From the NCBI GenBank assembly GCA_030604405.1, contig JAUVVY010000005.1:62001-126000 (forward strand): a stretch of 64,000 bases of DNA. Reading direction: 5' to 3'. Both the position numbers and the translations under genes were made by a program. Positions 17,316 to 64,000 of this stretch are shown piece after piece (the stretch's first letter is position 1; every line of letters starts with the position of its first letter). Source of the DNA: a bacterium. Lineage in GTDB: Bacteria > Armatimonadota > Zipacnadia > Zipacnadales > UBA11051. The notes below the pieces were generated by a model. It had not been told where the DNA came from. It made no database searches and saw only the letters and a program-made list of their open reading frames with translations.

Positions 17316-17360
17316 GGCAAGGGCAGCCCGAGGTCGTTGGCATACATGGAGGGGAGACGC

Positions 17361-18815: not shown

Positions 18816-18819
18816 GGAG

Positions 18820-44833: not shown

Positions 44834-45086
44834 GGCATTGTTGCAGAGTTCTACATTGCGCCCAGTTTCCCCTGCTCAGCACATTCTCCCGCCGTCGCAA
44901 GCTAGCCTGTTTACAGCGCATCATTGTGCGGGTCGAGCAGGCGAAGCCGTTCCCGACCGCGAATTAGACGGCGAGCGTGTCACGGGCATCTCAAACGTAT
45001 TCACGTGGCACGGGCTTTCCAGACGCTGCTGCTTTTTGAAATAGGGTATGTGCGGGGACTGTCCCCCAGAGCCCAGAGCTTCGCCA

Positions 45087-46745
45087 ATGTGGAGCGGCCG
45101 ACGAACAACAATCATTGTGCTGTTGACCATCATGGCTGCGGCCGTAGTGCTGCGCACCTATGGTCTGCGCAGTCTCGTCTATTGCAATCCGGACGAAGCG
45201 CTGTGGGCGTATTTCCTCGTCAACAACGCGAAGCTCTCCGTACTCAACCTTGACCTCATGGACAACGGCCTGGCGAGAATTCTCAGTTGGGATTATGGCT
45301 GGCCTGTTTTTGTGTTCTACCTGGCCTACGTGAAAGGTCTCGACGCGCTGCACATACCCATTTCCGAGGCGACCTTACCCATACCGCTTGCGCTCGTGAG
45401 CGCTTTGATTTGTCTTCTGGTCTTTCGCCTGGGCCTGGAGTTGCGCACAGTGACGACTGGGATAATAGCGGCCTTGCTTGTCGCGATCATGCCGCTTACG
45501 GTGATTTACGGACGTTCGATCGGCGGGTTCCACCACCTGGGCAGCAGCTTATTCTTCTTGCTCTCCGTTCTCATGTTGGTCCGCTATTTGCGCGATCCGA
45601 CGAGTCGGCGACAGAGGTTGTGGGCAGGATTGGCTGTCGCTCTGTACGTTTGCGCGGACCTTCAGTTCCCCATCGGCCTGGTGGTCCTGGGCGCGCTGCT
45701 GTTGATTTGGCCGAAAGACCAGCAGTACCGTGACTGGCAGGGCCTGAAACGCCTCATCTTCAAGCCCGAGTTGCTGGTGCCTCCGCTGGTGCTGTTTTGC
45801 CCCTACGTCCTCATCTATATATATGCCTGCCGTCTCGGGTATCCCGATCAGACTTATCTCGGCACGATGCTGGCGGAACACAATGCCGACTGGGGCCTGC
45901 ACGTATCTGGCTTTTTTTCCGACCTGCGGCATAACATGGGCCTGCCCTTGGTGGTGTCGCTGATTCTGGTCCCGTCGGCCATCGCCGCAAGCTGGACCGA
46001 CAATCGCCTCAAATGGCTGACCTTGTGGGCGGGGCTGACAGCTTTTCCGTTCCTGGTGGCCGTCTCGCGCGAGGTCACGATGTCGTATGGCTATCACGAG
46101 CATCTGATCGTGGCCCTAGCGCTTCTCGTGGCCATTGCGCTGGGTGCTGTGCGTACCCGCTGGCTTGCTGCAACTTTGGCCACCATTGTGGTCTGTGGCA
46201 CGCTTGCGACTACACTAGGCGGCGTCCTCAGCGTGAAGCCGTTCACCGTATTCTGGCATTTGCCTGGGACGGTTTACGGCGGCGTAGCGCCGAATTACGG
46301 AATGAAGACGGCGGGTTATTGGGTGCGAGAGAATGTCGGTCCGGACCAGCGACTATTTGTGGAGAATGACCCGGCGGTGGCCTACTGGTACCTGGGGCGG
46401 CCGGCAATCACCGGCGGCTACGGCCACAACGAGCAATATCGCAGGGAGTTCCTGGGACGGGTCAGAGACGAGGTTGAGGTAGCCATACTTCCTGCGTATT
46501 CCCGAGAGTGGGCGATGCAGAACCTCGTCCCTTACGGCTTTGCAGGCCACATCGTCATCCGCTCGCAGGGCGAGGACGTACAGGACATCTTTACTAGATG
46601 GGCGGTGGAGGAAGAACTCGACACCGAGGTAGTGGATCCCCTATACGACCGCAAGTACAATAGCCTCAGCACGATTCTTCCGACTGTCGGCCCTTACGTC
46701 CCGGAAAAGCCGATTGTGGTACCAAGACCTCCAGGCCGCCAATAG
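45087..46745 (+). CDS. Polytopic membrane protein, GT-C glycosyltransferase-like
   Basis: About 552 aa. Ten or more hydrophobic segments follow the start TTIIVLLTIMAAAVVLR. The first loop has the acidic pair CNPDEALWAYF, typical of GT-C enzymes that use lipid-linked sugar donors (ArnT/PMT-type). The last ~150 residues are a soluble domain (NYGMKTAGYWVRENV, YGHNEQYRREF). Acceptor unknown. Another ATG at 45048 would add 13 residues. It diverges from the amidohydrolase operon and converges with the other GT-C gene. Confidence 0.8.
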   Translation: MWSGRRTTIIVLLTIMAAAVVLRTYGLRSLVYCNPDEALWAYFLVNNAKLSVLNLDLMDNGLARILSWDYGWPVFVFYLAYVKGLDALHIPISEATLPIPLALVSALICLLVFRLGLELRTVTTGIIAALLVAIMPLTVIYGRSIGGFHHLGSSLFFLLSVLMLVRYLRDPTSRRQRLWAGLAVALYVCADLQFPIGLVVLGALLLIWPKDQQYRDWQGLKRLIFKPELLVPPLVLFCPYVLIYIYACRLGYPDQTYLGTMLAEHNADWGLHVSGFFSDLRHNMGLPLVVSLILVPSAIAASWTDNRLKWLTLWAGLTAFPFLVAVSREVTMSYGYHEHLIVALALLVAIALGAVRTRWLAATLATIVVCGTLATTLGGVLSVKPFTVFWHLPGTVYGGVAPNYGMKTAGYWVRENVGPDQRLFVENDPAVAYWYLGRPAITGGYGHNEQYRREFLGRVRDEVEVAILPAYSREWAMQNLVPYGFAGHIVIRSQGEDVQDIFTRWAVEEELDTEVVDPLYDRKYNSLSTILPTVGPYVPEKPIVVPRPPGRQ

Positions 46746-46787
46746 GGCAGGGGGGCGGGGCGGTTTATTGATCTGGGGCCATCCCCA

Positions 46788-48350
46788 CTACAGTGTGCGC
46801 TCACCGGGCCAGGACTCCGCCAGGTAGCTACCTAGCGCGCTTTGCGGCTCGGCCATTAGCCACAGATAATAACCTGGTGGGTGGGCAACACAGACGCCGA
46901 CACGTTCCATGCGCCTGCGCAGACACTCTTCGTATAGGCCCTCTTCCCACGGGAACAGGGGGTTGAAGCTGTCGGGGCGGGACGAAACCAACACAACGAG
47001 GTCAGGTGTCGGCTGCAGGACATGGTCTGGATTGCGGTCGTTCTGAAGAGCGATATTGGGATTATTGAGGCCGAAGGTGTCGATCGTCAACCATCTGGAG
47101 AAATACGGGATCGCTCCTGCATCGCCTACTGCCACCACCAGCGGTCCACCCGCCTCCAATCCAAAAGCTCGCAGGCACTTGCCTAGCCTCACATGCGCCC
47201 TTGCAAGCGCCTCCGCGTCCCGGCGTTTGCTGGCCAGATCCTTGGCCAGCATGGGTCCGTATCCCGCCGTCGCCACAACGAGCAGCGCTGCAAGCAGCAG
47301 CGCGGCGCTGGCTTTTTGCAGAGTGCCTGCTGCTGGAAGCCACGATCTTGCTTTTTCCGCCACAGCCCCGATGCCTAACGCCGCCGGCACTATCAAGAAG
47401 CAGCTAACCGGGTACAGGTAGCGGAAGTCGTAGCTCATCAGATGTTCCGGGAACAGGAAGAAAGCTCCCAGCGCCACCATCGCCACCGCCCCGGGTACAA
47501 TCCGCTTGTCCGCCCTTGCCAAGCCCGGAATAGCAAGTACCAGCAGCGGGAGTCCTATCAATTTGAGATACCGCAGCACCGGGCCGAGACCTGCCAGACC
47601 TGGGTGGGCGGTCGTTTTGATGTAGAAGGGGAGCGGGAACAGGTGGCCGTAGTAACCCAGGCGCCAGCCAAAATAGGCCAGGGCCGGCAAGACGTAACCT
47701 ATGGCGCATGCCTTCAGCAATAACTTTCGCTGTTTCGGACCACTCATGGCCATTAACGCTGTGATTCCCGCTATAGCGGCCAGATTCCCTTCCGGGCGCG
47801 TCAGCCCGGTCAGAAGCGCCGCGAAGGCTATCTTCGCGGCCAATCCGGGCCCGGGCTTGCTGGCGAACAGGGTGACATGGTATAGAAAGAGCATCAGCAG
47901 CAGGGCGAACAATGCGGTCTCCATGCCGGCGACGGCATGCACCGCCGTGGGGTGATAGCAAGCAAGCAGCAGAACCGCCACCGCCGCTACCATACGCTCG
48001 CCGCTGATCTGCCAGGCGGCGGCTAGATGGCGTACAAGAGCGAACTCCACGCCCAGCAGCGCCAGGGCGAACACTACGCCCAGCAACTTCCCGAGGACCA
48101 CCGGCTCCCGGACAAGGAGATGGGCCGGAGCCATGATCAGCATCCACAGAAACGTCGTATAGCCTTCAATCGGCGGCTCCCCGACATTGTACGTCGGCCC
48201 GTAGCCGCCGGCCAGGTTCTGTGAATATCTAAACGTGATGAATGCGTCATCCACCGTAAAGGGCCAGAACGCCACAACCAGCCAGGCAAAGATCCCCAGC
48301 GCAAGGACGATCAGCGGCCAGTGTCCGCGAGCATACATAACGTTATTCAC
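46788..48350 (-). CDS. Polytopic membrane protein, GT-C glycosyltransferase-like
   Basis: 520 aa. The N-terminal VDDAFITFRYSQNLAGG with GYTTFLW is a recognisable GT-C start (acidic pair in the first periplasmic loop). About ten membrane segments and a soluble C-terminal part (VVAVGDAGAIPYFSRW) follow. It likely transfers a sugar to a lipid- or protein-linked acceptor. The GTG start (48350) directly abuts the DegT gene stop; ATG 48338 is an alternative. Last gene of the glycan operon. Confidence 0.82.
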   Translation of the reverse strand: MNNVMYARGHWPLIVLALGIFAWLVVAFWPFTVDDAFITFRYSQNLAGGYGPTYNVGEPPIEGYTTFLWMLIMAPAHLLVREPVVLGKLLGVVFALALLGVEFALVRHLAAAWQISGERMVAAVAVLLLACYHPTAVHAVAGMETALFALLLMLFLYHVTLFASKPGPGLAAKIAFAALLTGLTRPEGNLAAIAGITALMAMSGPKQRKLLLKACAIGYVLPALAYFGWRLGYYGHLFPLPFYIKTTAHPGLAGLGPVLRYLKLIGLPLLVLAIPGLARADKRIVPGAVAMVALGAFFLFPEHLMSYDFRYLYPVSCFLIVPAALGIGAVAEKARSWLPAAGTLQKASAALLLAALLVVATAGYGPMLAKDLASKRRDAEALARAHVRLGKCLRAFGLEAGGPLVVAVGDAGAIPYFSRWLTIDTFGLNNPNIALQNDRNPDHVLQPTPDLVVLVSSRPDSFNPLFPWEEGLYEECLRRRMERVGVCVAHPPGYYLWLMAEPQSALGSYLAESWPGERTL

Positions 48351-49448
48351 TCAGTTCCCATACTCTAGCGCCGCGGCTACCTCTTGTACTTCCTCGGCGG
48401 TCAGACCCGGAAACATCGGCAGCGAGAGAATCTCGGCGCACGCGCTCTCTGCGACGGGGAAGCTGCCGGGCCCCAGGCCCAGGTGCTGGTAGGCCGGCTG
48501 CAGATGTATCGGAATTGGGTAGTGCAGCCCCCAGCCTATCCCTGCTCTATCAAGACACTCAGCCACGACATCGCGCTCGCCACACCTCACCACGTACAGA
48601 TGATAGACGTGCTCGGCGTAGTCCGCTATGGCAGGAGTAACCAGGGGCGAATCTTCCAGGAGCTGATCATACCGTGCCGCTGCCTCCCGCCGAGACGCGT
48701 TCCACTCATCCAGGTGAGGCAGCTTCGTCAGCAGCACGGCGGCCTGCAGCGTGTCCAGACGCCGGTTGTAGGCCAGGTACAGGTGGTGGTATTTCACCTC
48801 CTGGCCATAATTGCGCAGCATCCGCATTTGCTCGGCAAGCTCACCGTCATTGGTGACCAGTGCCCCGCCATCCCCAAATGCGCCGAGGTTCTTGGCAGGG
48901 TAGAAGCTGAACGCAGCGGCGTGGCCCAGACTGCCACAGCGCCGTCCCTTGTATCGCGCGCCATGCGCCTGGCAGGCATCCTCCAGCACCTTCAGGCCGT
49001 GCTTGTCGGCGATCTCCATGATCGGGTCCATGTCCGCAGGCTGGCCGTAGAGATGGACGGGGAGAATGGCTTTGGTGCGCGGCGTTATGGCGTCTTCGAT
49101 TTGATTGACATCAATGGTGTAGGTGCCCGGTTCAATGTCCACAAACACGGGTTGTGCCCCGGTGAATGCGATGGCAGAGGCCGTGGCAATGAAGGAGTTC
49201 GGCGCGGTGATTACCTCATCACCCTCACCGATGCCCCACGCCCGCAGGCACAGCTCGAGTGCCGAGGTGCCGGTGTCAGTTCCCACGGCGTGTTCGACTT
49301 CGCAGTAGGCCGCGAAATCGGCCTCGAACTGCTCCACATCATCCCCTAATATGAATGCGTTGCGATCAATGACCGCACCCATCGCCGCATCTAGTTCAGC
49401 GCGGATGGGATCATGGCTGCGGTTCATATCAACGAATGGGACCGCCAT
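48351..49448 (-). CDS. DegT/DnrJ/EryC1/StrS sugar aminotransferase
   Basis: 365 aa PLP enzyme that aminates keto-sugar nucleotides. Internal aldimine Lys ~186 in FYPAKNLGAFGDGG; also TGTSALELCLRA and VLEDACQAHGARYKG. Among known groups WbpE (UDP-3-oxo-GlcNAcA 3-aminotransferase) and FdtB are plausible analogues, because a Gfo/Idh dehydrogenase and a hexapeptide acyltransferase lie in the same operon. Confidence 0.94.
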   Translation of the reverse strand: MAVPFVDMNRSHDPIRAELDAAMGAVIDRNAFILGDDVEQFEADFAAYCEVEHAVGTDTGTSALELCLRAWGIGEGDEVITAPNSFIATASAIAFTGAQPVFVDIEPGTYTIDVNQIEDAITPRTKAILPVHLYGQPADMDPIMEIADKHGLKVLEDACQAHGARYKGRRCGSLGHAAAFSFYPAKNLGAFGDGGALVTNDGELAEQMRMLRNYGQEVKYHHLYLAYNRRLDTLQAAVLLTKLPHLDEWNASRREAAARYDQLLEDSPLVTPAIADYAEHVYHLYVVRCGERDVVAECLDRAGIGWGLHYPIPIHLQPAYQHLGLGPGSFPVAESACAEILSLPMFPGLTAEEVQEVAAALEYGN

Positions 49449-49490
49449 TCAAGTACCTCCCTATGGGCGCGCGTGTCACGGCATTTCTTG

Positions 49491-50222
49491 CTATTTCTTC
49501 AGCCCCAGGCCCAGCAGGAAGATTGGCCTCAGGATGCTCCACCATCCGCTGAATGCCCTCATCTTGGTCTGGCCCAGCTCTCGCGGCGGATAGATCTTGG
49601 TGCACGGCGCCTCCAGGTGCCGGTAGCCCAACTTGATGGTCTTAAACAGAATGTAGGGTTCCAGCTCGTACTTATCCAGCCAATCCTGCCGCCAGTCAAT
49701 CCGCGGGTCCTCGAGAACTCGCCGGTGGATGGCTCGAAAGCCGTTTGTGCTCTCTGTCAGCCACTTGCGGGCGAATAATGAGAAGAGCAGGGCATGGAAT
49801 CGCGTCGCCAGCACCCGGTACAGAGGCATGTTGCCATATTGGCCGCTGCGTGTGAAGCGAGAGCCCTGTACGAAATCGGCCTCGCCGTTCTTGATTGGCT
49901 CCACCAGGCGCGGAATCTCCAACGGCTCGTCCTTATTGTTGCCCGCCATTATCACCATTATCTCGTACTCGTTTTCGAGTGCATAGGTGAAAGCCGTCTT
50001 CAGGGCGGCTCCCACGCCGCGGTTGTCCTCATGTCGAGCAACTATCGCCCCGCCTTGCCTCGCTATCTCACCGCTGCCATCGGTAGAGCCGTCGTCCACG
50101 ACCAGGATGTCATAGTCGTGATCGGCCGGATAGCGGGTCATCATAGCCTTCAGTTTGTCACTCTCGTTGTAGCAGGAGGCTATCACTATCGTTCTTGACA
50201 GTCGGTCTGTGTTTGAATGCAT
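49491..50222 (-). CDS. Family 2 glycosyltransferase
   Basis: 243 aa GT-A enzyme. IVIASCYNESDKL starts the nucleotide-binding fold, LVVDDGSTDGSG is the first Asp-containing motif, and AGNNKDEP replaces the usual DxD. Its layout resembles dolichol/undecaprenyl-phosphate mannosyltransferases (DPM1 type) and probably charges a lipid carrier for the GT-C proteins. No C-terminal membrane domain, although the end (ILRPIFLLGLGLKK) is hydrophobic. ATG 50222 is preceded by an in-frame ATG at 50225. Confidence 0.9.
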   Translation of the reverse strand: MHSNTDRLSRTIVIASCYNESDKLKAMMTRYPADHDYDILVVDDGSTDGSGEIARQGGAIVARHEDNRGVGAALKTAFTYALENEYEIMVIMAGNNKDEPLEIPRLVEPIKNGEADFVQGSRFTRSGQYGNMPLYRVLATRFHALLFSLFARKWLTESTNGFRAIHRRVLEDPRIDWRQDWLDKYELEPYILFKTIKLGYRHLEAPCTKIYPPRELGQTKMRAFSGWWSILRPIFLLGLGLKK

Positions 50223-50286
50223 CATAGTAGTGGCTGGCCTTTGTCAATCCGGCCGAATCTACAGCCTGCATATCAACTTTTTGGGC

Positions 50287-51045
50287 TCATTCGATGTCAT
50301 CATCGGAGGCTGGCTCCACCCCTTCGGGCAGCCATTCAGGGCGGACGTTGCCGACCACTCGAGCAGGCACGCCGAGGGCGAGCTTTTTCGGTGGCACGGC
50401 ATGAGTGACCACTGCGCCGCTGCCGACAATGGCGTACTCGCCAACCTCGATGCCCGGAAGCACCGAAGCCAGCGCGCCGATGCTGGCACCCCGGCGGATG
50501 GTCGGCCCTTTGTATTCCTCGTCCGCAGAAGACCGGTCCATGCTGTTGTCGTTGCTGGTGCCCACCAGGGGGGCAATGAAGACATCATCCTCAATTATCA
50601 TATTGCCGCTGATGTGTGCGCTGTCCAGTATCTTCACTCGGTCGCCGACAATGGCGTGGTAATTCAAGGTGACACCGCGGGCGACTATGCAGTGGTCGCC
50701 TACCTGGCATTCCTCGCGGATCGAAGCCAGGTCTCCAATCAGCGTCTGCTGCCCAATTGTGGTACCACAGTAAAGGACTGTACAGGCACCGATCACGCAT
50801 CCCGCTCCGATGCGTAGTGGCGCCAGGTCTTCGCGGATCTTGCGCGTCATGGCGCCCGTTCCCTGCGGCGGCCGTCCCAGCACCGCGTGGTCATAGACTG
50901 TGCAGTCAGACCCGATCTGGGTACCTTCATACACCACGACGCCGCTCTTGAGCACGACCCGATCGCCGATTGCAGCATTGGCCTCGATCACTACACCGTA
51001 GCCGAGCGACACGTTCTCACCGATTTTCGCACTCGGGTGAATCAT
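50287..51045 (-). CDS. Left-handed beta-helix acyltransferase (hexapeptide repeat)
   Basis: 252 aa. Repeated [LIV]-G-x4 hexapeptides run from MIHPSAKIGENVSLGYG through SIREECQVGDHCIVARGV to LGVPARVVGNVRPEWLP, the WbpD/FdtC-like C-terminal signature. It would N-acetylate the amino group introduced by the DegT enzyme. AGAGG precedes ATG 51045 by 9 bases; ATG 51054 is closer to the same site and less likely. Confidence 0.9.
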   Translation of the reverse strand: MIHPSAKIGENVSLGYGVVIEANAAIGDRVVLKSGVVVYEGTQIGSDCTVYDHAVLGRPPQGTGAMTRKIREDLAPLRIGAGCVIGACTVLYCGTTIGQQTLIGDLASIREECQVGDHCIVARGVTLNYHAIVGDRVKILDSAHISGNMIIEDDVFIAPLVGTSNDNSMDRSSADEEYKGPTIRRGASIGALASVLPGIEVGEYAIVGSGAVVTHAVPPKKLALGVPARVVGNVRPEWLPEGVEPASDDDIE

Positions 51046-51278
51046 AATCTTCATCCTCTCGCCGGGGCGTAGTTGATTCTGCGCGATGCACAAGGGTGCC
51101 GCTGCGCGTTTACACGCTGCACCAGGCGAATTGTATCATCGGGCTTCCGCTGGCGCAACTCTCCTCGCAGGGCACGCCTGTGAGAGCAGGACTGTAACCG
51201 GACGTGGGTCTCCTGTCGAGGTCATCTGAATTTCGGTATGTGTGGGCAGCCCGTAATGCAGTCCCCTTGCAGCCGGGG

Positions 51279-52283
51279 TCAAGCAAGCCGCGACAGCTTT
51301 ACCTGACAGCGCCAGGCGCAGACTGCCCCAATCAGACATCCTGGCACAAGCTGGCTTGCGTGCAGCAAAACGGCGTATGCGGCTGCGTCGCTGCGCCCCA
51401 CCCCTGCATAGCTCACCGCCACTATGACCGCAAATTCGAAGGTCCCTACCCCACCAGGCGCAGCCGGCAGTAACATGCCCAGTGCGGTTGCGACTAATAC
51501 CAGGCCCGATGCCGTTGCAGGAACGTCCAGATGCACGGCCTTCAGGGATATCCAGATCGCAAGCAGCACCGTCGCCCACACGGCTGCGCTGAGGGCGATG
51601 ACGCTTACCGTTCGCAAGGGCTCGCGCAGAAACTGACCGCCATCTGCAAAAGAGCCGGCCACGGACTGAGTTCGCTCGCGCCAACTTGCAGGTAGCAGAC
51701 GAGCAAGGTACGTGCCAAGCCCGTGTAGTTGACTTCGCAGACGTACCAGCAGCACTACCACAGCTATGATGCCGGCCGCCACGCCCAACCCCACGTGCAC
51801 CTTCGCTCTGACCTCGTCGGGGAATGGATAGAGCCATACGGCAACGGCTCCGATGGCCAGCAGAGCGATCGCATCCAGCAGCCGTTCAGCGACAATTGAG
51901 CCAAAGGCCGCGGCCCGGCTGACGCCCTCGCGGCGGCCCAGCACATGCGCGCGAATGAACTCTCCGGCACGCGCGGGCAGGACACTGTTTCCCAGAAAGC
52001 CGACCAGCACCGCGTCATAAGCCGCCACGTGGCCGATCTGTTTGATGGGCCCCAGCATCTGCTGCCAGCGCACGGCCCTCACGTTGAAGCTTGCCAGGCC
52101 AACCAGCGCGCTGAGAATAAGCAGCCAGACGTCTGCGCCGTAAATGGCGGCCCAGAACGTGGGGAAGTCAATTCCGTAGAAGGCGGCGATGAGGCAGACG
52201 ATCGTAACGACGCCGCCGATCGCCAGCGCGAGACGCCGGCGTCCCTGCGGCGGCCCCGGTTGTTGATCTATACCCTCTGCCAT
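51279..52283 (-). CDS. Lysylphosphatidylglycerol synthase TM-like (UPF0104) flippase family protein
   Basis: 334 aa, about eight membrane segments, with the family cores FNVRAVRWQQML, GNSVLPARAGEFIRAHVLG and LPAAPGGVGTFEFA. Related proteins are found with polyprenyl-linked sugar clusters, and some are proposed to flip lipids. Only 3 bases separate it from the upstream Gfo/Idh gene. A 233-base gap before the acyltransferase gene may hold a second promoter. Confidence 0.88.
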   Translation of the reverse strand: MAEGIDQQPGPPQGRRRLALAIGGVVTIVCLIAAFYGIDFPTFWAAIYGADVWLLILSALVGLASFNVRAVRWQQMLGPIKQIGHVAAYDAVLVGFLGNSVLPARAGEFIRAHVLGRREGVSRAAAFGSIVAERLLDAIALLAIGAVAVWLYPFPDEVRAKVHVGLGVAAGIIAVVVLLVRLRSQLHGLGTYLARLLPASWRERTQSVAGSFADGGQFLREPLRTVSVIALSAAVWATVLLAIWISLKAVHLDVPATASGLVLVATALGMLLPAAPGGVGTFEFAVIVAVSYAGVGRSDAAAYAVLLHASQLVPGCLIGAVCAWRCQVKLSRLA

Positions 52284-52286
52284 GAT

Positions 52287-53357
52287 TCAACTGGTGCTCT
52301 GTTCTTCATAGTTCGAGCCGGCAGTTTCGCCCGTGCCAGGCATGTCGGTAATTGGCACGGGAGCGCCTCCGCATTTGGCTGAGGCCTCGGCCGCTTTCAG
52401 TATGGCGCAGATCCGGTAACCGTCCCAGACATCGGTCAGGGGCTGCGTGCCGCTGGCGATGCAGTTGAGGAACTCCTCACACTGCGCCTTTAGCGGCTCG
52501 TGCATTTCGATGACGGGAATAATTACATTGCTTGCGTGGGCGACAAGCTGAAACTCGCCGAAGGTGCTATAGACCGGCTCGGTGCGCAGCCCCCGCTGCG
52601 AAATCCGTACGGGCTCGGCCAGATTCATGTCGTCAAACTCCAGCATCGAATTTGACCCTATCACCTGTACCTCGCGCCGCTTCTTCGGGTCCAGCCAGCT
52701 TACGTGCATCCTGGTCAACACACCGTTCGGGAAGGTTGTGGTGATGAAGGCCGTGTCGCCTCTGGAGCCGTCCAGGTACGTGCCGGTGACGGCGGATACC
52801 TCGGTGGGCATGTTGTTGAGCAGATGCAGAGCGATTGACAGATCGTGTGGCGCCAGGTCCCAGATGACAGATACGTCGTTGCGCACCGGGCCCAGGTTGG
52901 TGCGTACGAAGCTCATGTAGCGCAACTCGCCCAGCGTGCCGTCATACATCAACTCGCGCATCTTGTTGACACCGGCGTTGAAGCGAAAGATATGTCCTAC
53001 CATCAGGATTTGGCCGTCGGCTAGCGGCGATTGGGCCAGGGCGAGCGCGTCTTCTGCACTGGCGGCCAACGGCTTTTCCACCAGCACATGCTTGCCCGCG
53101 CCGAGACAGTCTTGCACTATTTCGCGATGCGTGGCGGCAGGGGTGACTACGACCACAGCATCACACTCGCCTTCCTGCAGCATATCACGGTAGTCTGTGT
53201 ATGTGCGCAGGCCGGGATAGCGTTGTGAGAGCCTGTCAATAGCCTCCGCATCCTGATCGCAGCAGGCAGCAACTTCGCTTTCTGGAATTTCCATGAAATT
53301 GCGGACATAGTTTGGGCCCCATCGCCCACAGCCGACAACAGCGATTTTCGTCATCAT
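52287..53357 (-). CDS. Gfo/Idh/MocA family oxidoreductase
   Basis: 356 aa NAD(P)-dependent sugar dehydrogenase. The nucleotide-binding motif is AVVGCGRWGPNYVRN. VLVEKPLA has the conserved Lys, and IWDLAPHDLSIALHLL contains the catalytic Asp-x3-His. WbpB-like activity (oxidising C3 of a UDP-sugar acid) fits the DegT aminotransferase and acyltransferase in the same operon. GGGAGG lies 5 bases before ATG 53357 (53354 is an adjacent alternative). First gene of this operon. Confidence 0.93.
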   Translation of the reverse strand: MMTKIAVVGCGRWGPNYVRNFMEIPESEVAACCDQDAEAIDRLSQRYPGLRTYTDYRDMLQEGECDAVVVVTPAATHREIVQDCLGAGKHVLVEKPLAASAEDALALAQSPLADGQILMVGHIFRFNAGVNKMRELMYDGTLGELRYMSFVRTNLGPVRNDVSVIWDLAPHDLSIALHLLNNMPTEVSAVTGTYLDGSRGDTAFITTTFPNGVLTRMHVSWLDPKKRREVQVIGSNSMLEFDDMNLAEPVRISQRGLRTEPVYSTFGEFQLVAHASNVIIPVIEMHEPLKAQCEEFLNCIASGTQPLTDVWDGYRICAILKAAEASAKCGGAPVPITDMPGTGETAGSNYEEQSTS

Positions 53358-53643
53358 TGCAGCCTCCCTTGATTTTGCCTTTCTTTGCTGCAATGCCAAC
53401 TTTGGCCATCGGCCTCGTGCAGTCGAACCTCTCTTTGCACGGGCTCGGCGAAGCATCTAATACTGGCGGCTGAAGGTAGCGCGTTGCAACAGGTGATATC
53501 ATTCATCATGTTGGGTAGATCGGCACCAGGGATATTCGCGATGGAGTTCATCAGGATAATTTGCGCAAGTCCCAAGATCAATAGTCCCAAGTCCCTGCCA
53601 TCAATATAGTTCCCAGAGATCTTGCTGGCTGGCTCAAGTCACA

Positions 53644-55631: not shown

Positions 55632-56906
55632 ATGAGAGCAGGATTTGCAAAGGTCCCGATAACACCGCCCATCGGAACGCGGATGATGGGCTTCGGAGGC
55701 CGAGACCGCGAGCACGGGTGTACGGCAATCCACGACGACATCTTCGTGCGGGCTGTCTATCTGGAACACGCTGGGGAAGCGGCCCTGATCATGGGCTTTG
55801 ATCTATGCTTTATCGGACGAGCCGACGCGGATCGGCTCAAAAGCGCCATTGGACAGAGGCTGAACCTTGCCGCCAAGCAGATACTCCTGAATACCTCACA
55901 CAACCACGTCGGCCCGGCGGTGGGCACATGGCACTCGGCGGGTTACATCGCCCCCGACCATCGCTACCTCAAGGACCTGGATGCGGCCGTGGTCAGTGTA
56001 GCATGTCAGGCCCGAGACGCGCCGCGTGAGGTCACCGTGTCCGCTGGAGTCGGTCGCTCGGCGCTACCGATGAGCAGGCGCATAAGACATGAGGACGGCA
56101 GCGTGACCAGTGGTCCCAATCCCGATGGCGTGGTTTATGATGCCGTGCCGATTTGCTTGCTGAAAGACCTGGCGGGCGAGCCGGTGTGCCTGCTGTTTTC
56201 CGTCTCGTGTCACCCGGTCATAATGAGCGGTTTCGAGGTCTCCGCCGAGTACCCGGGCGCTGCCATGGACCGGCTTGACGCGCAGCTTGGCACCAGCGCA
56301 AGTCTTTTCCTGCAGGGAGCGGGAGCCGATGCCAATGTCAGCGTTAGGCGAGACACCTGGGACGATGTGGCCGAGGCCGGAGAAATGGTCGCCGATGAGG
56401 TAATCCGGCCGCTAGAGGCGGGGTTTGTAGAGATAGAGCCACAGGTTCGTACTCACTTGGTGCAAGTGCAGTGGCCGCTGCAGCCCGCCCTGGGCAAGGA
56501 TGTGTATGTGGCCGTGGCCGAGGATCCGCAGGGCGACGAAACCCGGCGGCTGTGGGCGCAGAGCATACTTGAGCGCATCGAGCGCGGCGAGCCGCTGCCG
56601 ACTTCGGTGCCAATACTCATCCAGGGCGTGCAGCTTGGCAAGGGCTTGCGCATCGTCGGGGTCGAAGGCGAGATGGTCGCCGGACTGGGAATTCTTATTC
56701 GGGATTTCTACGGCGAGGGCGTTACGTTCCCGCTGGGGTACAGCAATGGTGAAGGCCTCTATATGCCGACCTCGGACATGATTGACGAGGGCGGATACGA
56801 GGTGGTGAGCTATTGGGAGTATAGATACCCGGCGCCGCTGGCCAAGGGCTTTGAAAGCATATTGATACAGGCTCTGGAGCAACTCCGCGCCAGCGGGATA
56901 GAGTAG
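55632..56906 (+). CDS. Neutral/alkaline ceramidase-like hydrolase
   Basis: 424 aa. Features of the N-terminal ceramidase domain: MRAGFAKVPITPPIG, GFGGRDREH, LNTSHNHVGP (zinc His pair), VSCHPVIMSG and FLQGAGADANV. Family members hydrolyse amides such as ceramides; many bacterial members with this short form have unknown substrates. No signal peptide is seen, so it may act inside the cell. AAGGGAG lies 8 bases before ATG 55632. The next operon starts 193 bases downstream, perhaps with its own promoter. Confidence 0.88.
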   Translation: MRAGFAKVPITPPIGTRMMGFGGRDREHGCTAIHDDIFVRAVYLEHAGEAALIMGFDLCFIGRADADRLKSAIGQRLNLAAKQILLNTSHNHVGPAVGTWHSAGYIAPDHRYLKDLDAAVVSVACQARDAPREVTVSAGVGRSALPMSRRIRHEDGSVTSGPNPDGVVYDAVPICLLKDLAGEPVCLLFSVSCHPVIMSGFEVSAEYPGAAMDRLDAQLGTSASLFLQGAGADANVSVRRDTWDDVAEAGEMVADEVIRPLEAGFVEIEPQVRTHLVQVQWPLQPALGKDVYVAVAEDPQGDETRRLWAQSILERIERGEPLPTSVPILIQGVQLGKGLRIVGVEGEMVAGLGILIRDFYGEGVTFPLGYSNGEGLYMPTSDMIDEGGYEVVSYWEYRYPAPLAKGFESILIQALEQLRASGIE

Positions 56907-57099: not shown

Positions 57100-57987
57100 A
57101 TGATTTGCCTGACGGGCGATGTGCACCACATGTCATTGCGCTGCAACGACCAGAGGTTCCTGACCGAGCCGGGTGACACCGAGGTCAAGGTCACGCAGCG
57201 CTATCTGGCCCTGCTGGAAGAATATGAGGTGAAATCCACTCTCTACATCTGCGGGAAGTGCTTCACCGAAGAGTGGGAGGAGCTGGAGCCGGTCGTGAAA
57301 TCTCCCCTGGTCGAAGTCGGCGGCCACGGCTTTCGAGCCAGGCAGCCGCGCAAGTTTTTCGACTGGTACGGCCGGCACACGGGGAACTGGAACGGGCCGA
57401 AGGCCTATCAGGCCTGGGACATCCGCAAGAATGTGCAGGTCTGCGAGCAGAAAGTCGGCTACCGGCCGGTCTCGTGGCGTGCCCACAGCTACAAGGTGGA
57501 CCCGAACACCTATCCGCTCCTGGCACACTATGGCTTCAAGCTGGTGTCAGACGAAGTATCGGCGGACAATATTTGGCCTGAACGCATACAAAATGGATTG
57601 ATCTCCCACCCGATGAACGTAATTCCCGACCATGACCACCTCTATCACGCCCACCGCGATGAGGAGTTCGTTGAGGCTGCCAACCGCAGGGGTTACGGGG
57701 CCGATGCCTTCGGCGCGGCTTCCTACACGATCCAGGAGTGGGGCAAGCTGGTGTTGGAGCAGGCGCAGGCCATCGAAAATAAGGGCGGCGTTGTGACCAT
57801 CCTGGCGCACCCGATCTGTATGTACCTGGCTGACGGCTTCACGACTCTTCAGATGCTGCTGGAGTACCTTTCGACGCAGCAGACAATCTGGGCCAGAGAA
57901 ATTATGGACCTGGTGGACAATCCGCCGGCGGCCGTACAAGCTGCACAGCGCGGTAATGCCGGCCGGGAAGCCCGCCCCACAGCATAA
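57100..57987 (+). CDS. Polysaccharide deacetylase-like (NodB-fold) protein
   Basis: 295 aa. The fold start ICLTGDVHHMSLRCN with the catalytic-type Asp, EVGGHGFRAR (motif 2 region), WRAHSYKVDP (motif 3) and LAHPICMYLAD (motif 5 His) match the NodB/CE4 layout. The usual TFDDG and HxxxH motifs are changed, so metal binding or substrate may differ. GGGAG precedes ATG 57100 by 8 bases. First gene of a six-gene plus-strand operon; 39-base gap to the next. Confidence 0.72.
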   Translation: MICLTGDVHHMSLRCNDQRFLTEPGDTEVKVTQRYLALLEEYEVKSTLYICGKCFTEEWEELEPVVKSPLVEVGGHGFRARQPRKFFDWYGRHTGNWNGPKAYQAWDIRKNVQVCEQKVGYRPVSWRAHSYKVDPNTYPLLAHYGFKLVSDEVSADNIWPERIQNGLISHPMNVIPDHDHLYHAHRDEEFVEAANRRGYGADAFGAASYTIQEWGKLVLEQAQAIENKGGVVTILAHPICMYLADGFTTLQMLLEYLSTQQTIWAREIMDLVDNPPAAVQAAQRGNAGREARPTA

Positions 57988-58026
57988 TACTGGGCATTAG
58001 CAAAATCCAGACGGAGGAGAATCATC

Positions 58027-58986
58027 GTGGAGACGCTGGTATATCTAAATGGCGAACTGGTGCCGGAGCAGGAAGCCAAGGTATCTATCTTCGACATCGG
58101 CTTCATGTACAGCGCGGTTTTCATGGAGGCGGTGCGCACCTTCAAGCATAAGGTTTTCCGCCTCGGAGATCACCTGGAGCGGCTCGAGAAGTCCATGCGT
58201 TACGTCGGCCTGGAGCCGCTCCTCAGCCAGGAGCAGATGGAGCACGTCATCAATCAAGTCATCCAGGCCAATATCGCCAACTTCCCGGAGGACGATGACT
58301 GCTGGGTCTGCGCGCAGGTGACGCCCGGCCTCGGCTTTCCGCACCCTATGATGAAGGGCAAACACAGCAAGCCCACGGTGATGGCATACGTCAGCCGGCT
58401 GCCGTACGACCAATATGCCCACTGCTATGCGGAAGGCCAAGCGGCGGTTGTGTCCAATGTGCGCAACGTGCCGCCGGCGTGTGTTGACCCGCGCGGCAAG
58501 ACCCGGTTCCGCCTGCACTATTTCATGGCGAAGCTGGAGGCCAAAGTCAGCGATCCCGACGCCTTCGCGCTGATGCTGGACACCGACGGGTACGTGACAG
58601 AGGGGACCGGCGCCAACTTCTTCATTGCCTCCAAAGGGGTACTGTACACGGCGACGACGCGTAACATTCTCGAAGGCATCAGCCGGCAGACCGTGATCGA
58701 GCTGGCTGGTAAGCTGGACATTCCGGTGGTAGAGCGGGACCTGACGCTTTATGATGTCTATGGGGCCGACGAGGGTTTCTGGACCACCTCCTCGTACTGC
58801 ATGTTGCCACTGTCCACAGTGAATCACGTGGCCATGAAGCAGGTGCCCGGGCCACTGACGCAGGCGCTGTTGCAGGCGTGGAGCGATGAAGTCGGGGTTG
58901 ACATCGTGGCGCAGGCCGTGAAATACGCGGACAGACCCAGTAATGTCTGGCGAGGCGAGGAAGAGGAGGCCACGTCGCCAGGCTGA
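58027..58986 (+). CDS. Class IV PLP enzyme (BCAT/ADC lyase family)
   Basis: 319 aa, fold type IV. VSIFDIGFMYSAVFMEAVRT at the start, PLP Lys ~158 in DPRGKTRFRLHY, and EGTGANFFIASKG as the phosphate-binding EGxxxN motif. The family includes branched-chain aminotransferases, D-amino acid transaminase and aminodeoxychorismate lyase; substrate cannot be assigned. GTG start with GGAGG about 9 bases upstream. 18 bases to the next gene. Confidence 0.9.
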   Translation: METLVYLNGELVPEQEAKVSIFDIGFMYSAVFMEAVRTFKHKVFRLGDHLERLEKSMRYVGLEPLLSQEQMEHVINQVIQANIANFPEDDDCWVCAQVTPGLGFPHPMMKGKHSKPTVMAYVSRLPYDQYAHCYAEGQAAVVSNVRNVPPACVDPRGKTRFRLHYFMAKLEAKVSDPDAFALMLDTDGYVTEGTGANFFIASKGVLYTATTRNILEGISRQTVIELAGKLDIPVVERDLTLYDVYGADEGFWTTSSYCMLPLSTVNHVAMKQVPGPLTQALLQAWSDEVGVDIVAQAVKYADRPSNVWRGEEEEATSPG

Positions 58987-59004
58987 TAGCGCGGGGAGAA
59001 AAGC

Positions 59005-60288
59005 ATGAACGTACTGGTAATACTCGAGGACGCGGTGCGCCCGGCGCACATGGGATGCTACGGCTACCCGAAGAACACGACGCCGAACTGCGACCGGCTG
59101 GCGCGTGAGGGCGTCCGCTTCGACAACTGCATCGCCGTGTCCACCCACACCTTCCCGTCGGTGGCTTCGATCATCACCGGCCAGACGACGGCCACGCACG
59201 GCCTCATGAGCCCCACCAACTACACAGCGTGGATGAATGAAGGCCTCTGGGAGGGCCACCGCACACCCTTGCACCTGCTTCGAGACAACGGCTTCCTCGT
59301 AGATGGCGAACAGGTGACCCGTTGGGCCCCGCTTGGGTTTCCCCACGATGCCGACGACCTTGAGGGTTACATGGAGCAAAATCGCGACAGGCGGTGGTTC
59401 TACTTCGCCGAGCCGTATCCGACGCACTTGCCCTACGACCCGCCACAGCGATACTACGATATGTTCGTGGACGAGGATTTCGAGCCGAGCCCGGAGACTC
59501 TAGAACGCCTGGAGATCGTCAGGACGCGGATGATCCTGCACCCGCCGGACGTGCAGTCGGCGCTGGAAGCCGGCCGCGAAGACCCCATCGGCGTCGGCGA
59601 CGGTGCTCACAAGCGCAGCACGGCTATCGTCGAGTTCCAGCCCGAGGATGCACCGGGGATACGCGCGCTCTATGACGGCGAGATGCGCGTCTTCGATGAC
59701 ATGGTCGGGCGCTGGATCGCCAAGCTTCAAGAGCTTGACCAGCTTGACGATACGCTGGTAGTCATCATCTCCGACCACGGCGAGGAGCTCCTCGAACGCG
59801 GTCACGTCGGCCATACCTCGTGCAACCTCAAGGGTACGCTGTACGATGAGTGCATTCGCGTGCCGCTGATAATGCGCTATCCGAAGAAGCTGCCGGCCGG
59901 GAAGGTCGTGACGCAGCAGGTCTCGCAGATTGATATGATGCCAACCATCTTCGACATCCTCGGCCTGGAGCTTTCGCTCCCCCACGATGGTGCCTCGACA
60001 CTGCCGCTGATCCACGGCGGGAGCGAGCGGCTCCGCGAGGAGGCCTACGCCGAGACCATGCCGGCGGGATGGCAGGCCCTCGATGGCGACGAGCGCCGCA
60101 TCTGGTGCGTTCGGACGCTTGAATGGAAGCTGATTATGAACCTCGACCCCGTTACGGATACGCAGAGCTACGAGCTTTACAATCTGCTCGATGACCCCGG
60201 AGAGCAGAATAATGTCTTCGACCAGGAGCCGGCAAAGGCGGCCGAGTTGAAAGACAAGCTGGAGGCCCACATGGCCAGCCCAGATTAA
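59005..60288 (+). CDS. Sulfatase-fold (alkaline phosphatase superfamily) enzyme with Thr nucleophile position
   Basis: 427 aa. The start NVLVILEDAVRPAHMGCYGY, DHGEELLERGHVGH and LYNLLDDPGEQNNV match sulfatases. But the C-x-P-S-R formylglycine motif reads T49-F-P-S-V, so the enzyme cannot be an FGly sulfatase. Thr at this place is the nucleophile in phosphoethanolamine transferases, LtaS and phosphodiesterase-type members. It likely cleaves or transfers a phospho-group. No signal peptide, so probably intracellular, unlike LtaS/EptA. Operon position (18-base and 41-base gaps) ties it to the adjacent enzymes. Confidence 0.85.
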   Translation: MNVLVILEDAVRPAHMGCYGYPKNTTPNCDRLAREGVRFDNCIAVSTHTFPSVASIITGQTTATHGLMSPTNYTAWMNEGLWEGHRTPLHLLRDNGFLVDGEQVTRWAPLGFPHDADDLEGYMEQNRDRRWFYFAEPYPTHLPYDPPQRYYDMFVDEDFEPSPETLERLEIVRTRMILHPPDVQSALEAGREDPIGVGDGAHKRSTAIVEFQPEDAPGIRALYDGEMRVFDDMVGRWIAKLQELDQLDDTLVVIISDHGEELLERGHVGHTSCNLKGTLYDECIRVPLIMRYPKKLPAGKVVTQQVSQIDMMPTIFDILGLELSLPHDGASTLPLIHGGSERLREEAYAETMPAGWQALDGDERRIWCVRTLEWKLIMNLDPVTDTQSYELYNLLDDPGEQNNVFDQEPAKAAELKDKLEAHMASPD

Positions 60289-60329
60289 GGGCCTATGCGC
60301 GCAAAATTCGAAGAGCGAGGTGCACAATA

Positions 60330-61391
60330 ATGAACAATGAAGTGATTCGACTTGGGATCATCGGCATGTCGCCGACCAATATGGCCTCGACCTTCGCACT
60401 CCTGAGCGACGAGCCGGACCTCAGGTATGAGATCACGGCGATCTGCGCGCGGCGCCAGGAAGTGCTCGACCAGTGCATGGCGCAGTTCGACGTGCCGTTC
60501 GGGACGCTGGATTACCGCGAGCTTGCCCAACGTGATGACGTGGATGTGGTTTGTGTCTTCACGCCGGATCATCTCCACGCCGATCACTGCGCCGCTGCCA
60601 TTGAGGCCGGCAAGCACGTCGTCTGCACCAAGCCGATGGTCACATCCCTCGAAGAGGCCAGGAGGCTCGTGGACCTGGTGCGCGAGCATGGCGTCAAGTT
60701 CCTCGTCGGCGAGACGATGCGCTTCGACCGCCAGTTCTACATGTCCAAGAAGCTCTTCGACGACGGCGACCTCGGCGACCTCATCGCCATCGAGAGCTAC
60801 TACGTCCATGACCTGCGCGCGGTCTTCGAGTTCACCCCCTGGCGGCTGACCGTGCCTCAGGATTTTCTCTACGGTGGCTGTTGCCATTCCGTGGATGCCA
60901 TCCGCGCCTTCGCCGGCGATATTGACACTGTTCACGCCATCGCCATCAGGGGCGACCTCACCGCAGGCTACCCGCTCGAGGACAACTTCTTCCTCAACCT
61001 CAAGTTCAAGTCCGGTGTCATCGGACGTGTCTCCGGCCTCTACGGGATCATCCATCCGCCCACGCCGATGATGCAGATCGGCATCTACGGCACCAGGGGC
61101 AGCCTGCAGACGGAGTTCACCGATAACGAACCCGGCCAGGTGCGCGTCGTTCTGGACAAGCTCGTTGACCACAAGCCTCTGGTCGCCGATTTCGAACCCG
61201 AAACCGACCTCAGCGCCTATGGGCTTGGCGCTGCTGTCATCCGCTACATGCGCCATTTCCAGGACTGTCTCGACAACGACCTCGAGCCGGTTCCCGGTGT
61301 GGTCGAAAGCGCCAAGACGATGGCCGTCATCGCCGCCGCATGGGAGTCCATCGAGACCGGCCAGGTCGTCGAGGCCTTCAACGAATTCTGA
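60330..61391 (+). CDS. Gfo/Idh/MocA family oxidoreductase
   Basis: 353 aa. N-terminal Rossmann fold with a modified glycine motif (RLGIIGMSPTNMAS), FTPDHLHADHC, VVCTKPMVTS (TKP for the usual EKP) and GGCCHSVDAIRAF in the catalytic region. Probably oxidises or reduces a cyclic polyol or amino-sugar-like intermediate. The gap to the MtaA/UROD-like gene is 24 bases. It is only distantly similar to the glycan-operon Gfo/Idh at 52287-53357. Confidence 0.92.
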   Translation: MNNEVIRLGIIGMSPTNMASTFALLSDEPDLRYEITAICARRQEVLDQCMAQFDVPFGTLDYRELAQRDDVDVVCVFTPDHLHADHCAAAIEAGKHVVCTKPMVTSLEEARRLVDLVREHGVKFLVGETMRFDRQFYMSKKLFDDGDLGDLIAIESYYVHDLRAVFEFTPWRLTVPQDFLYGGCCHSVDAIRAFAGDIDTVHAIAIRGDLTAGYPLEDNFFLNLKFKSGVIGRVSGLYGIIHPPTPMMQIGIYGTRGSLQTEFTDNEPGQVRVVLDKLVDHKPLVADFEPETDLSAYGLGAAVIRYMRHFQDCLDNDLEPVPGVVESAKTMAVIAAAWESIETGQVVEAFNEF

Positions 61392-61415
61392 GCCGCTGCC
61401 CAGGGGAAAACGTGC

Positions 61416-62471
61416 ATGAACGCTCGAAAACGCCTTTCAACGGTATATCGGGGGAGTCTTGCGGACCGCATCCCGTGGGCGCCGATCGTCACAAAGGCGA
61501 CTCTTTCGACTTATCCGGACCGCGTCCAGACAGAAGGCACAATCGCTTTCACCCGCGCTGTTGGCGGTGACGTGCTGTACCGGGGCACGGCTCATCGTAT
61601 TGAGCAGCCGCAGGTTGAGATCGCTCGCCACGCCGAGCGGGACACGCAGGTCACCGAGTATCAGACACCCTTCGGCACGCTTCGGCAAGTGTATCGCTCC
61701 GGCTCTCTCGTGGAACGTCAGATAAAGACCCTCAGCGACTACGAGGCCTTCAGGTTTGTTTACGAAAATCAGCGGTTTGTGCTGGACGAAGACGCTCTGC
61801 GTGAAGCTGAGCACCAGGTCGGGGACGCCGGCATCGTCACAGCAAGCATCGGCCCGACGCCGGTCCAGCGCTTGCTGCAGTTTGAGTTGGGCGTTGAGGG
61901 TTTCGCGTATCACCTGGCCGATTGCCAGCGCGAGCTCGAGGGCCTGATGGCTGTTATGCACGCGAAGAACCTGGAGCTTTACGAGTTGGTAGCTTCCTCC
62001 TCAGCCGAGTTCGTCATGCTGTACGAGAACACTTCCACCACCATGGTCTCACCTGCGATCTATGACTGCTATAGCCTCGAGCACGTACGCGGGTTCGTAG
62101 AGGCCATGCACGCGCAGGGCAAGGTGGCGATCGTACACATGTGCGGCAAGGTCAACCGGTTGCTGCACCTGATCCGCCAGACCGGTCTGGACGCCATTGA
62201 TTGCCTGACGCCGGCGCCGACGGGGGATGTGGACTTTGAAGAGGCATTCGAGATCCTGGGCGATAGTGTGATCATACACGGCTTGCTGGACCCGTCCGAA
62301 TGGACCCACCGTCCTATCGAGGAGATCGAGCGGAACATCCAGGCGCTCCTGACACCAGAGATCCTCAAGCGGCCTTTCGTATTTTGCACTGCTGCAGACG
62401 GCTTGCCGGGAATCCCGATGGAGAAGTTCGAGGCGATTGGCCGCATCATGAGCCGCTACCAGTTTGCTTGA
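61416..62471 (+). CDS. Uroporphyrinogen decarboxylase/MtaA-CmuA family methyltransferase-like protein
   Basis: 351 aa TIM barrel. The zinc-thiolate signature HxCx~80C of MtaA/CmuA corrinoid methyltransferases is met by His 241-Met-Cys 243 (VHMCGKVN) and Cys 324 (FVFCTAADG). Other landmarks: RIPWAPIVTKAT, MLYENTSTTMVSP. Such enzymes move methyl groups between a corrinoid protein and a thiol, or demethylate methoxylated compounds. Haem synthesis is less likely because the neighbours are unrelated. Functionally it could connect to the three MttB genes. Confidence 0.85.
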   Translation: MNARKRLSTVYRGSLADRIPWAPIVTKATLSTYPDRVQTEGTIAFTRAVGGDVLYRGTAHRIEQPQVEIARHAERDTQVTEYQTPFGTLRQVYRSGSLVERQIKTLSDYEAFRFVYENQRFVLDEDALREAEHQVGDAGIVTASIGPTPVQRLLQFELGVEGFAYHLADCQRELEGLMAVMHAKNLELYELVASSSAEFVMLYENTSTTMVSPAIYDCYSLEHVRGFVEAMHAQGKVAIVHMCGKVNRLLHLIRQTGLDAIDCLTPAPTGDVDFEEAFEILGDSVIIHGLLDPSEWTHRPIEEIERNIQALLTPEILKRPFVFCTAADGLPGIPMEKFEAIGRIMSRYQFA

Positions 62472-62596
62472 ACGACCTCAGGTGGGACTTGGCCGCGCCA
62501 GAGGGCCGACAGGACATCTTACCTGATTTGCGCGCGGTACGATCGCACAAGCAAGAGAGAGCCAAAGTGCCCTGACGCGGCGGAAGGGATGTGAAG

Positions 62597-64000
62597 ATGC
62601 CCCGTCTTACATTTACGAGGATTGTCTCGTTAGCGGTCTGCGTTTGTGTAGCGCATTGCAGCGTCGCTGAGGAGTTCACTTATGCGCCGCTGGATGACTT
62701 CGAGGATGCAAGCCCCTGGATTAAGGGAGATCCGAACACCGATCTTGAGCAGAAAGATGCTGCAGTCGTCCCTAATAGTGACTTCGTCAAGCAGGGCAAG
62801 CAGTCGCTGGCATTCATGATCCGCGTGAACTGGACGCCCAGGCCCGGGGAGAAGTACCCCAGGGGCTGGCCGATGATGTCGCGCGGCTTCGACCCGCCGC
62901 AAGACTGGTCGCAGTTTGACAGGGTCTTCTTCTGGCTCTACACCGAGACAGGGGCCTCACTGCCCGAGGACCGCGTCCTGCGCTGTGCGCCGATTCGCGC
63001 TGGTGCAGGAAATGTCGATTGGTACACGCTGCCTGACATCGAGCCGGGCCGCTGGCAGCTCATGTCGGTGCCCTTGGCCGCTGGGACTGATTTCACCCAG
63101 GTTACGGGCTTTACATTTTACGTCGCCGAGGGCTGGTATCGAGACGGCGATGAGATCAATTTCTACGTGGATGACATGCGGCTGGGGCAGCGCACCTGGC
63201 CCGTCTTTCAGAGTTGCTCAGTCACATCGCGCATCTTCCCGCGTGGGAGCAGTGTCGGCGGAGTCGTGGCGATCGAAGGCCCGCCCGAGGGAAGCAGTTT
63301 TTGCTGCACAGTCACTGACACGGGCGGCAGCAGACAGTTCTCTCGCGAGATGCGCATGAGGCACAAGAGTGAACGGTGGCGGCGCTACACCGAGACCCTT
63401 ACACCCGGCGGACACTACGCGACCGCAGAACTCCTTGACAAATCGGGGGAAATACGTGACTCCCGTCGCCAGTATTTCCGCAGCCTGGAGCCGCAGAGGC
63501 GGACTTACCTTTCGCTGATAAGCTTCTACTCGCCGACGCTCGAAAAGGCGACTGCCGAAAGGCTCAGCGTACTCAACGCCTCGGCTTACGCGGGTGTGGC
63601 AATTCCGCTTTGGAGCGGGTACGAGACCGACCCGGTGCCCGAGTATGAAGCTTTACAGCCGCAACTAAAGCTGGTAGGAGAGGCGCTTGAGATTGATCCG
63701 TGGCCGTGGGTCTTCACCAACCGCTTCATCGGCGCTCCGGCGGACGCTCAGAGCCACGCCAGCAAGCATGCCAAGGACCCCGGGTACTTTGAGCGCATCC
63801 CGATTCTCGACCTCGACAATGAGACCGGCGCCCGCGCCGACATGCTGAAGATGTGGCGGATTGCGGTGCGCGCAGCCAGGCAGTGGCGCTCGCCCGGCAT
63901 AGTCCTGGATATGGAGGCATACAATAACTATCGCGCATACAGCGTCGAGTACGTGGCCCAGCAGCGCGGCGAGAGCATCGCGGAGGTTATCGAAAAGTGC
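62597..64000 (+). CDS. Secreted protein with carbohydrate-binding-like N-terminus (cut by window end)
   Basis: At least 468 codons, open at the right edge. MPRLTFTRIVSLAVCVC... followed by CSVA is a signal peptide. Residues ~28-190 (PLDDFEDASPWIKGD, YVDDMRLGQ) have the look of a beta-sandwich CBM-like domain. A linker follows, then what seems to be the start of a barrel (RTYLSLISFYSPTL, IVLDMEAYNNY with a potential catalytic acid pair). GGAAGGG is 8 bases before ATG 62597. 125 bases from the MtaA-like gene and may belong to its operon. Family not identified. Confidence 0.8.
   Translation, partial: MPRLTFTRIVSLAVCVCVAHCSVAEEFTYAPLDDFEDASPWIKGDPNTDLEQKDAAVVPNSDFVKQGKQSLAFMIRVNWTPRPGEKYPRGWPMMSRGFDPPQDWSQFDRVFFWLYTETGASLPEDRVLRCAPIRAGAGNVDWYTLPDIEPGRWQLMSVPLAAGTDFTQVTGFTFYVAEGWYRDGDEINFYVDDMRLGQRTWPVFQSCSVTSRIFPRGSSVGGVVAIEGPPEGSSFCCTVTDTGGSRQFSREMRMRHKSERWRRYTETLTPGGHYATAELLDKSGEIRDSRRQYFRSLEPQRRTYLSLISFYSPTLEKATAERLSVLNASAYAGVAIPLWSGYETDPVPEYEALQPQLKLVGEALEIDPWPWVFTNRFIGAPADAQSHASKHAKDPGYFERIPILDLDNETGARADMLKMWRIAVRAARQWRSPGIVLDMEAYNNYRAYSVEYVAQQRGESIAEVIEKC

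Follow-up and report, generated by a model that had tools for sequence, protein, structure and literature searches.

Organization of the operon

The window, by which we mean the whole 64,000-nucleotide stretch analyzed, belongs to an Armatimonadota genome of 4.37 Mb in 96 contigs whose close relatives in the dac profile search are Armatimonadota MAGs, including 'Candidatus Zipacnadia'; a relative from the same genus is itself a Zipacnadia MAG. The class Zipacnadia was described from Guaymas Basin sediment as anaerobic, fermentative or acetogenic (PMC10290634). Toward the end of the window five open reading frames follow one another on the plus strand: dac (57100..57987), for a CE4-fold (polysaccharide-deacetylase-like) hydrolase; plp4 (58027..58986, with a GTG start), for a fold-type IV PLP aminotransferase-like enzyme; sulf (59005..60288), for an alkaline-phosphatase/sulfatase-superfamily hydrolase with Thr49 at the nucleophile position; gfo (60330..61391), for a Gfo/Idh/MocA NAD(P) oxidoreductase; and urod (61416..62471), for a UROD-superfamily (MtaA-like) protein with an HxCG...C motif. 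As set out below, dac, plp4, and sulf are core genes, gfo is a genus-level member, and urod is a variable one. The sequence-only reading of this DNA had described a five-gene operon on one strand with gaps of 18 to 41 bases, and all five reading frames are real, separated by 39, 18, 41, and 24 bases; its family assignments (deacetylase-like, class IV PLP, Thr-type, Gfo/Idh, and UROD/MtaA-like) likewise agree with Pfam and NCBIfam. Purine-rich, Shine-Dalgarno-like stretches lie upstream of all five starts. A promoter and terminator scan of the operon gave nothing above shuffled expectation, and co-transcription thus rests on spacing and strand. None of the five proteins has a signal peptide visible by reading.

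Two flanking genes on the same strand may be associated with the operon. Upstream is a neutral-ceramidase-like hydrolase (55632..56906, ATG at 55632; Pfam Ceramidase_alk, E 0.066), which is kept upstream of dac in genome G262 at 93% identity and was not found there in G260 or G263. Downstream is g7 (62591..64000, continuing beyond the window end), for a secreted protein of 657 residues that has no Pfam match and does not align significantly with the secreted protein encoded near sulf in G259, a genome from another genus of the family (here Gnnn denotes genomes and Lnnn individual loci). After g7 comes a secreted protein of 1456 residues with carbohydrate-binding-like domains (L021:14650-19017), which has a 92% identical counterpart of 1457 residues at the same position in G262. 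Upstream of the operon, at 45048-53456, lies a glycosylation or surface-polysaccharide cluster, almost all on the opposite strand, in which a DegT-like aminotransferase, an acyltransferase, a second Gfo/Idh protein, and glycosyltransferase-like membrane proteins were recognized by reading.

Active sites of the three core enzymes

The dac product matches Pfam Polysacc_deac_1 (PF01522) above the cut-off (2.4e-9), and its AF2 model (pLDDT 94.9) has the NodB-homology fold, with Z scores of 24.9 against 3rxz and of more than 16 against CE4 enzymes. The nearest solved folds, with Z scores of 20-25, are 3rxz, HpPgdA (3qbu), PuuE (1z7a/3cl6), and ArnD (8t0j). These are CE4-fold cytoplasmic deacylases, which hydrolyze amides or imides and, like dac, have no secretion signal, and the match covers nearly the whole chain (214-242 residues aligned). 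However, identity to them is only 14-18%, and the canonical CE4 metal-triad motifs are not present: among 54 homologues the TFDD of NodB is TGDxHH, and the HxxxH is reduced to a lone conserved His76. The invariant residues of the family are D7, H9, H76, R127, H129, D177-H178, H180, H183, and H237, and an invariant PDHxHxxH block is its mark. We are confident of the CE4 fold from this model, which places dac nearest the cytoplasmic small-molecule types; the conserved residues show a changed active site. When 60 dac proteins were placed in a tree, the ten module members all fell into one clade (100/98) together with two Lentisphaerota rows, separate from a clade of 44 rows, some of them from exopolysaccharide clusters. 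Most of the loci L067-L120 belong to a large group of dac relatives that share the invariant PDHxHxxH block and span many phyla, with hosts that include Campylobacterota, Myxococcota, Shewanella benthica, Cloacimonadota, and one Halorubrum; some of these wider-family members sit in exopolysaccharide clusters (for example L020). A plasmid search with dac returned a single match, at 23%.

The plp4 protein is a class IV aminotransferase-fold protein (Pfam Aminotran_4, 4.5e-40) in which the Schiff-base Lys158 is invariant in all eight module members, within the motif RxKxRxR. It resembles the BCAT and D-amino-acid aminotransferases (5cm0, 3daa) in its fold type, the catalytic Lys, and a retained TEGTGAN stretch. 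It differs from BCAT in the invariant RxKxRxR around the Lys and in the loss, on alignment to 5cm0, of the Tyr-x-Arg residues that bind carboxylate, and it scores 149 bits against the NCBIfam ilvE_I cut-off of 245.55. The carboxylate-site stretch of D-amino-acid transaminase also appears to be replaced. Since the usual carboxylate-binding residues are absent, transamination by plp4 is putative. RxKxRxR was considered as a signature of the cassette and rejected, because ~40% identical paralogues outside it carry K-x-R-x-R, some of which adjoin sulfatase, SDR, or Gfo genes. An iron-sulfur protein resembling QueG and reductive dehalogenases lies near plp4 at L015:2795-3754 (minus strand) and L132:449-1234 (plus strand), in one Armatimonadota and one Omnitrophota genome; the two copies are 56% identical.

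The sulf protein matches Pfam Sulfatase (1e-41) and, across its N-terminus, Phosphodiest (3.9e-12). H48-T49-x-P51, D9, and D257-H258 are invariant in nine of nine orthologues, and this Thr at the nucleophile position, together with the signatures of a predicted metal site, bears out the earlier description of a Thr-type, phosphatase-fold enzyme. By its superfamily matches and metal-site Asp/His signatures sulf resembles both the Thr-nucleophile members of the AP superfamily (type I phosphodiesterases/NPP, phosphonoacetate hydrolase, and phosphoethanolamine transferases) and the S1 sulfatases. It differs in having no visible signal peptide and no CxPSR formylglycine motif: Thr replaces the sulfatase Cys/Ser and the Arg is absent, the window sequence reading T-F-P-S-V. 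An FGly-dependent S1 sulfatase was therefore rejected, as the C/S-x-P-S-R motif is absent and H-T-x-P is found in all nine, and sulf should not depend on formylglycine. The protein scores below the cut-off of every NCBIfam equivalog and is a member of none. Among possible chemistries the Phosphodiest match favors phosphorus, and the Thr is that of the phosphodiesterase/phosphonoacetate-hydrolase branch, although the substrate of sulf could also be a sulfate ester or a different compound. Its AF2 model (mean pLDDT 59.9) was set aside. An imperfect palindrome of ~50 bases lies in frame inside the sulf and ABC permease genes of G259 (L050, ~8299 and 10560, minus strand), and further copies of its core occur at other places in the same genome (L015, L037, and L055), as a repeat that lives inside proteins. 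The expectation that three members of the operon have altered catalytic motifs is accurate for dac, plp4, and sulf; urod is not degenerate.

Conservation of the core gene set

Within Armatimonadota, dac has matches in 10 of 291 genomes, at 62% identity or more in five of them (four of the genus plus G259), and exactly the same five carry close orthologues (≥70%) of plp4 and sulf. The order dac-plp4-sulf-gfo is found in G263 and in G262, where it is preceded by the ceramidase-like gene and followed by the 1457-residue secreted protein; in G260, dac-plp4-sulf runs to a contig end and gfo opens another contig. In G259, dac and plp4 are ~3 kb apart and sulf is found at a distance of ~90 kb, where ABC importer genes immediately precede it and genes for a secreted protein, a CxPSR sulfatase, and a UROD-like protein follow.

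Scanning genome contigs with a dac profile yielded 65 loci, in which the other genes were then placed by tblastn. It should be noted that these loci are MAG fragments, several of which end near the cassette, and that neighboring genes without a family search are named from reading their sequence. The three core genes occur together, at 43-58% identity, in Omnitrophota (L062, in the order plp4-sulf-dac-UROD), in Desantisbacteria (L063, plp4-sulf-dac-ROK-transketolase, the last as two halves by reading), and in two Planctomycetota (L064, SDR-plp4-TAT protein-dac-sulf; L065, SSS-plp4-TAT protein-dac-sulf). Surveys with sulf added the Lentisphaerota-group genome G819 (L130, ROK-dac-UROD-plp4-DAPDH-like-sulf) and a second Omnitrophota genome, G997 (L132, three Gfo/Idh genes-sulf-plp4 to the contig end), and in the Lentisphaerae MAG G296 sulf lies apart from dac. 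The sulf gene is rare, being present in 5 of 291 Armatimonadota, 2 of 289 genomes from the phylum of the Lentisphaerae MAG, 2 of 35 Omnitrophota, and 1 of 382 sampled Planctomycetota, where scoring the top four candidates per genome returned the known member only. In the 12 genomes known to carry it, plp4 lies within ~5 kb in ten and dac in nine. The concern that the genes might be neighbors only in this genome is thus removed for the core genes, since dac, plp4, and sulf are neighbors in at least five phyla.

Genes that keep company while their order is shuffled are a classic sign of a functional set. Hence, from the recurrence of the core trio in shuffled order in at least five unrelated phyla, dac, plp4, and sulf very probably carry out one pathway, and they constitute a conserved, horizontally spread gene set. 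The Armatimonadota dac proteins group with those of Lentisphaerota (98/98), and in G819 the identities to the window proteins are uneven (58% for sulf, 44-48% for dac and plp4), from which it seems that the cassette has been transferred between phyla and reassorted. No published description of it was found in the open-access literature.

The variable oxidoreductase and UROD positions

The linkage proposed for the five genes holds for dac, plp4, and sulf, but they are not part of a fixed set, as gfo and urod are replaced elsewhere. The gfo protein (Pfam GFO_IDH_MocA, 5e-25) has orthologues only within the genus. The urod protein (Pfam URO-D, 5e-16) combines an MtaA/UROD domain with a retained HxCG...C zinc motif (HMCG and FC), and no orthologue above 37% was found in relatives of the family. 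At the locus in G262, the closest relative, both urod and g7 are missing between gfo and the gene for the 1457-residue secreted protein. A strict five-gene operon was therefore rejected. The URO-D domain and the HxCG...C of the zinc members are shared with the UROD-superfamily corrinoid methyltransferases (MtaA/MtbA, CmuA, and CdmB, PMC13222342). Unlike those systems, the operon encodes no cognate corrinoid protein or activating enzyme; a single B12-binding_2 corrinoid protein was found in the genome, on another contig. The urod scores are also far below the curated cut-offs, including that of its best NCBIfam subfamily, methylcobalamin:CoM methyltransferase (5.5e-11). Genes of the MttB-like trimethylamine-methyltransferase superfamily occur elsewhere in the window, at 17292-20277 and 40279-41742; the one at 40279 matches Pfam at 2.2e-99, and the two at 17-20 kb were assigned by reading.

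These data raise the question of membership, which is compatible with any interpretation of the chemistry: only dac, plp4, and sulf might be linked, with gfo and urod as passengers in the genus that share no pathway with them. The limited range of gfo, the G259 core without an orthologous gfo, the absence of urod together with g7 in G262, and the lack of a family urod orthologue would all fit. We nevertheless consider this somewhat doubtful, as the reaction types recur in several phyla though the genes differ. The oxidoreductase position is filled by unrelated families, namely an SDR (L064), a DAPDH-like protein (L130), and three Gfo/Idh proteins (L132), and UROD-like genes lie near core genes in four further loci (L050, L061, L062, and L130). 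The UROD-like proteins of L061 and L062 are orthologous (47%), and this position is otherwise occupied by divergent subfamilies. If UROD-like genes make up ~1% of genes, neighbors in five loci exceed expectation. Such genes are, however, numerous in the genome family, with 37 loose candidates in G000, so some of the adjacency may be due to chance and the link is less certain than that of the core.

A hypothetical pathway for an imported amino-sugar derivative

Based on these data we tentatively put forward, as the likeliest reading though somewhat short of an even call, that the genes form a cassette for the catabolism, in the cytoplasm, of a decorated derivative of an amino sugar (or amino-cyclitol) taken up from outside. 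We propose that dac would hydrolyze an N-acyl (acetyl or formyl) amide and that sulf would use its Thr nucleophile, without formylglycine, to remove a phosphate, phosphodiester, or related group. The freed amino group would be removed by transamination by plp4, and the product oxidized by an NAD(P) oxidoreductase, Gfo/Idh here and an SDR or 2,4-diaminopentanoate-dehydrogenase-like enzyme elsewhere. Where the substrate carries an O- or N-methyl group, the UROD-superfamily protein would hand it on to a corrinoid protein whose gene lies elsewhere in the genome. The combination of deacylase, aminotransferase-like, and phosphoesterase-like enzymes suggests an amino sugar that is N-acylated and phosphorylated (or carries a similar substituent); the substrate and the order of steps are what we infer from these enzyme types. 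The phosphorylated, N-acylated, methylated sugar or cyclitol of the sequence-only reading is accordingly possible, with methyl transfer as its weakest part.

The context favors degradation over synthesis. ROK-type regulators are present in L061, L062, L063, and L130 (one confirmed by Pfam, the others by reading), an ABC importer adjoins sulf in G259, a sodium:solute symporter adjoins plp4 in L065, and glycosidase-like secreted proteins (weak Pfam matches) are found in L130 and L131. Together with the transketolase and the lack of signal peptides on the core proteins, these point to a sugar derivative that is imported and then broken down in the cytoplasm. The types of transporter differ among loci (ABC, SSS, NCS2, and EamA-like), so no single substrate class is indicated.

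The same enzymes could instead be biosynthetic, producing a modified amino sugar destined for a surface polysaccharide or secondary metabolite, with the oxidoreductase forming a ketone, plp4 adding the amino group, dac removing a protecting acyl group, and sulf acting as a transferase. The glycosylation cluster adjoining the operon (~45-55 kb of the window), the exopolysaccharide-cluster members of the wider dac family such as that in L020, a DegT aminotransferase gene that follows gfo in G260, and the phosphoethanolamine transferases of the Thr-type AP superfamily, to which sulf has weak NCBIfam matches, are consistent with this. However, that cluster lies on the opposite strand, and it was not seen beside the operons of G260 and G263, where the neighbors are M16 peptidases, an AMP-binding enzyme, and PAS kinases. 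In addition, no glycosyltransferases were recognized in L062, L063, L065, L130, or L132, the ROK proteins and importers suit catabolism, and the module dac clade stands apart from the 44-row clade with exopolysaccharide-type members. We therefore regard biosynthesis as unlikely. Equally improbable is a catabolic route for an amino compound that has a phosphonate or phosphodiester linkage and is not a sugar (an N-acylated aminophosphonate, for instance, or a phosphoryl-amino-acid ester), which would suit the N-terminal Phosphodiest match and Thr lineage of sulf, the invariant Arg residues at K+2 and K+4 of plp4, and the protein in L130 that resembles 2,4-diaminopentanoate dehydrogenase, an amine dehydrogenase of amino acids, whereas the ROK, transketolase, glycosidase-like, and Gfo/Idh proteins point to sugars and K-x-R-x-R is also carried by the ~40% paralogues outside the cassette.

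Implications

Three enzymes of familiar superfamilies, all of them with an altered active site, are linked in phyla that have almost no cultured members. We offer as a possibility, short of a probability, that they belong to a catabolic pathway, so far undescribed, that has spread horizontally among bacteria of sediments and the subsurface in at least five phyla and that strips an amino-sugar derivative, with demethylation feeding the C1 pathway in some hosts. In it, a deacylase of the CE4 fold whose active site has been rebuilt would act with a sulfatase-fold hydrolase that needs no formylglycine and a class IV PLP enzyme whose substrate pocket is new. The cassette thereby offers a small pathway that can be tested, along with three candidates for new enzyme specificities, and it suggests that there is an overlooked substrate in anoxic sediments.
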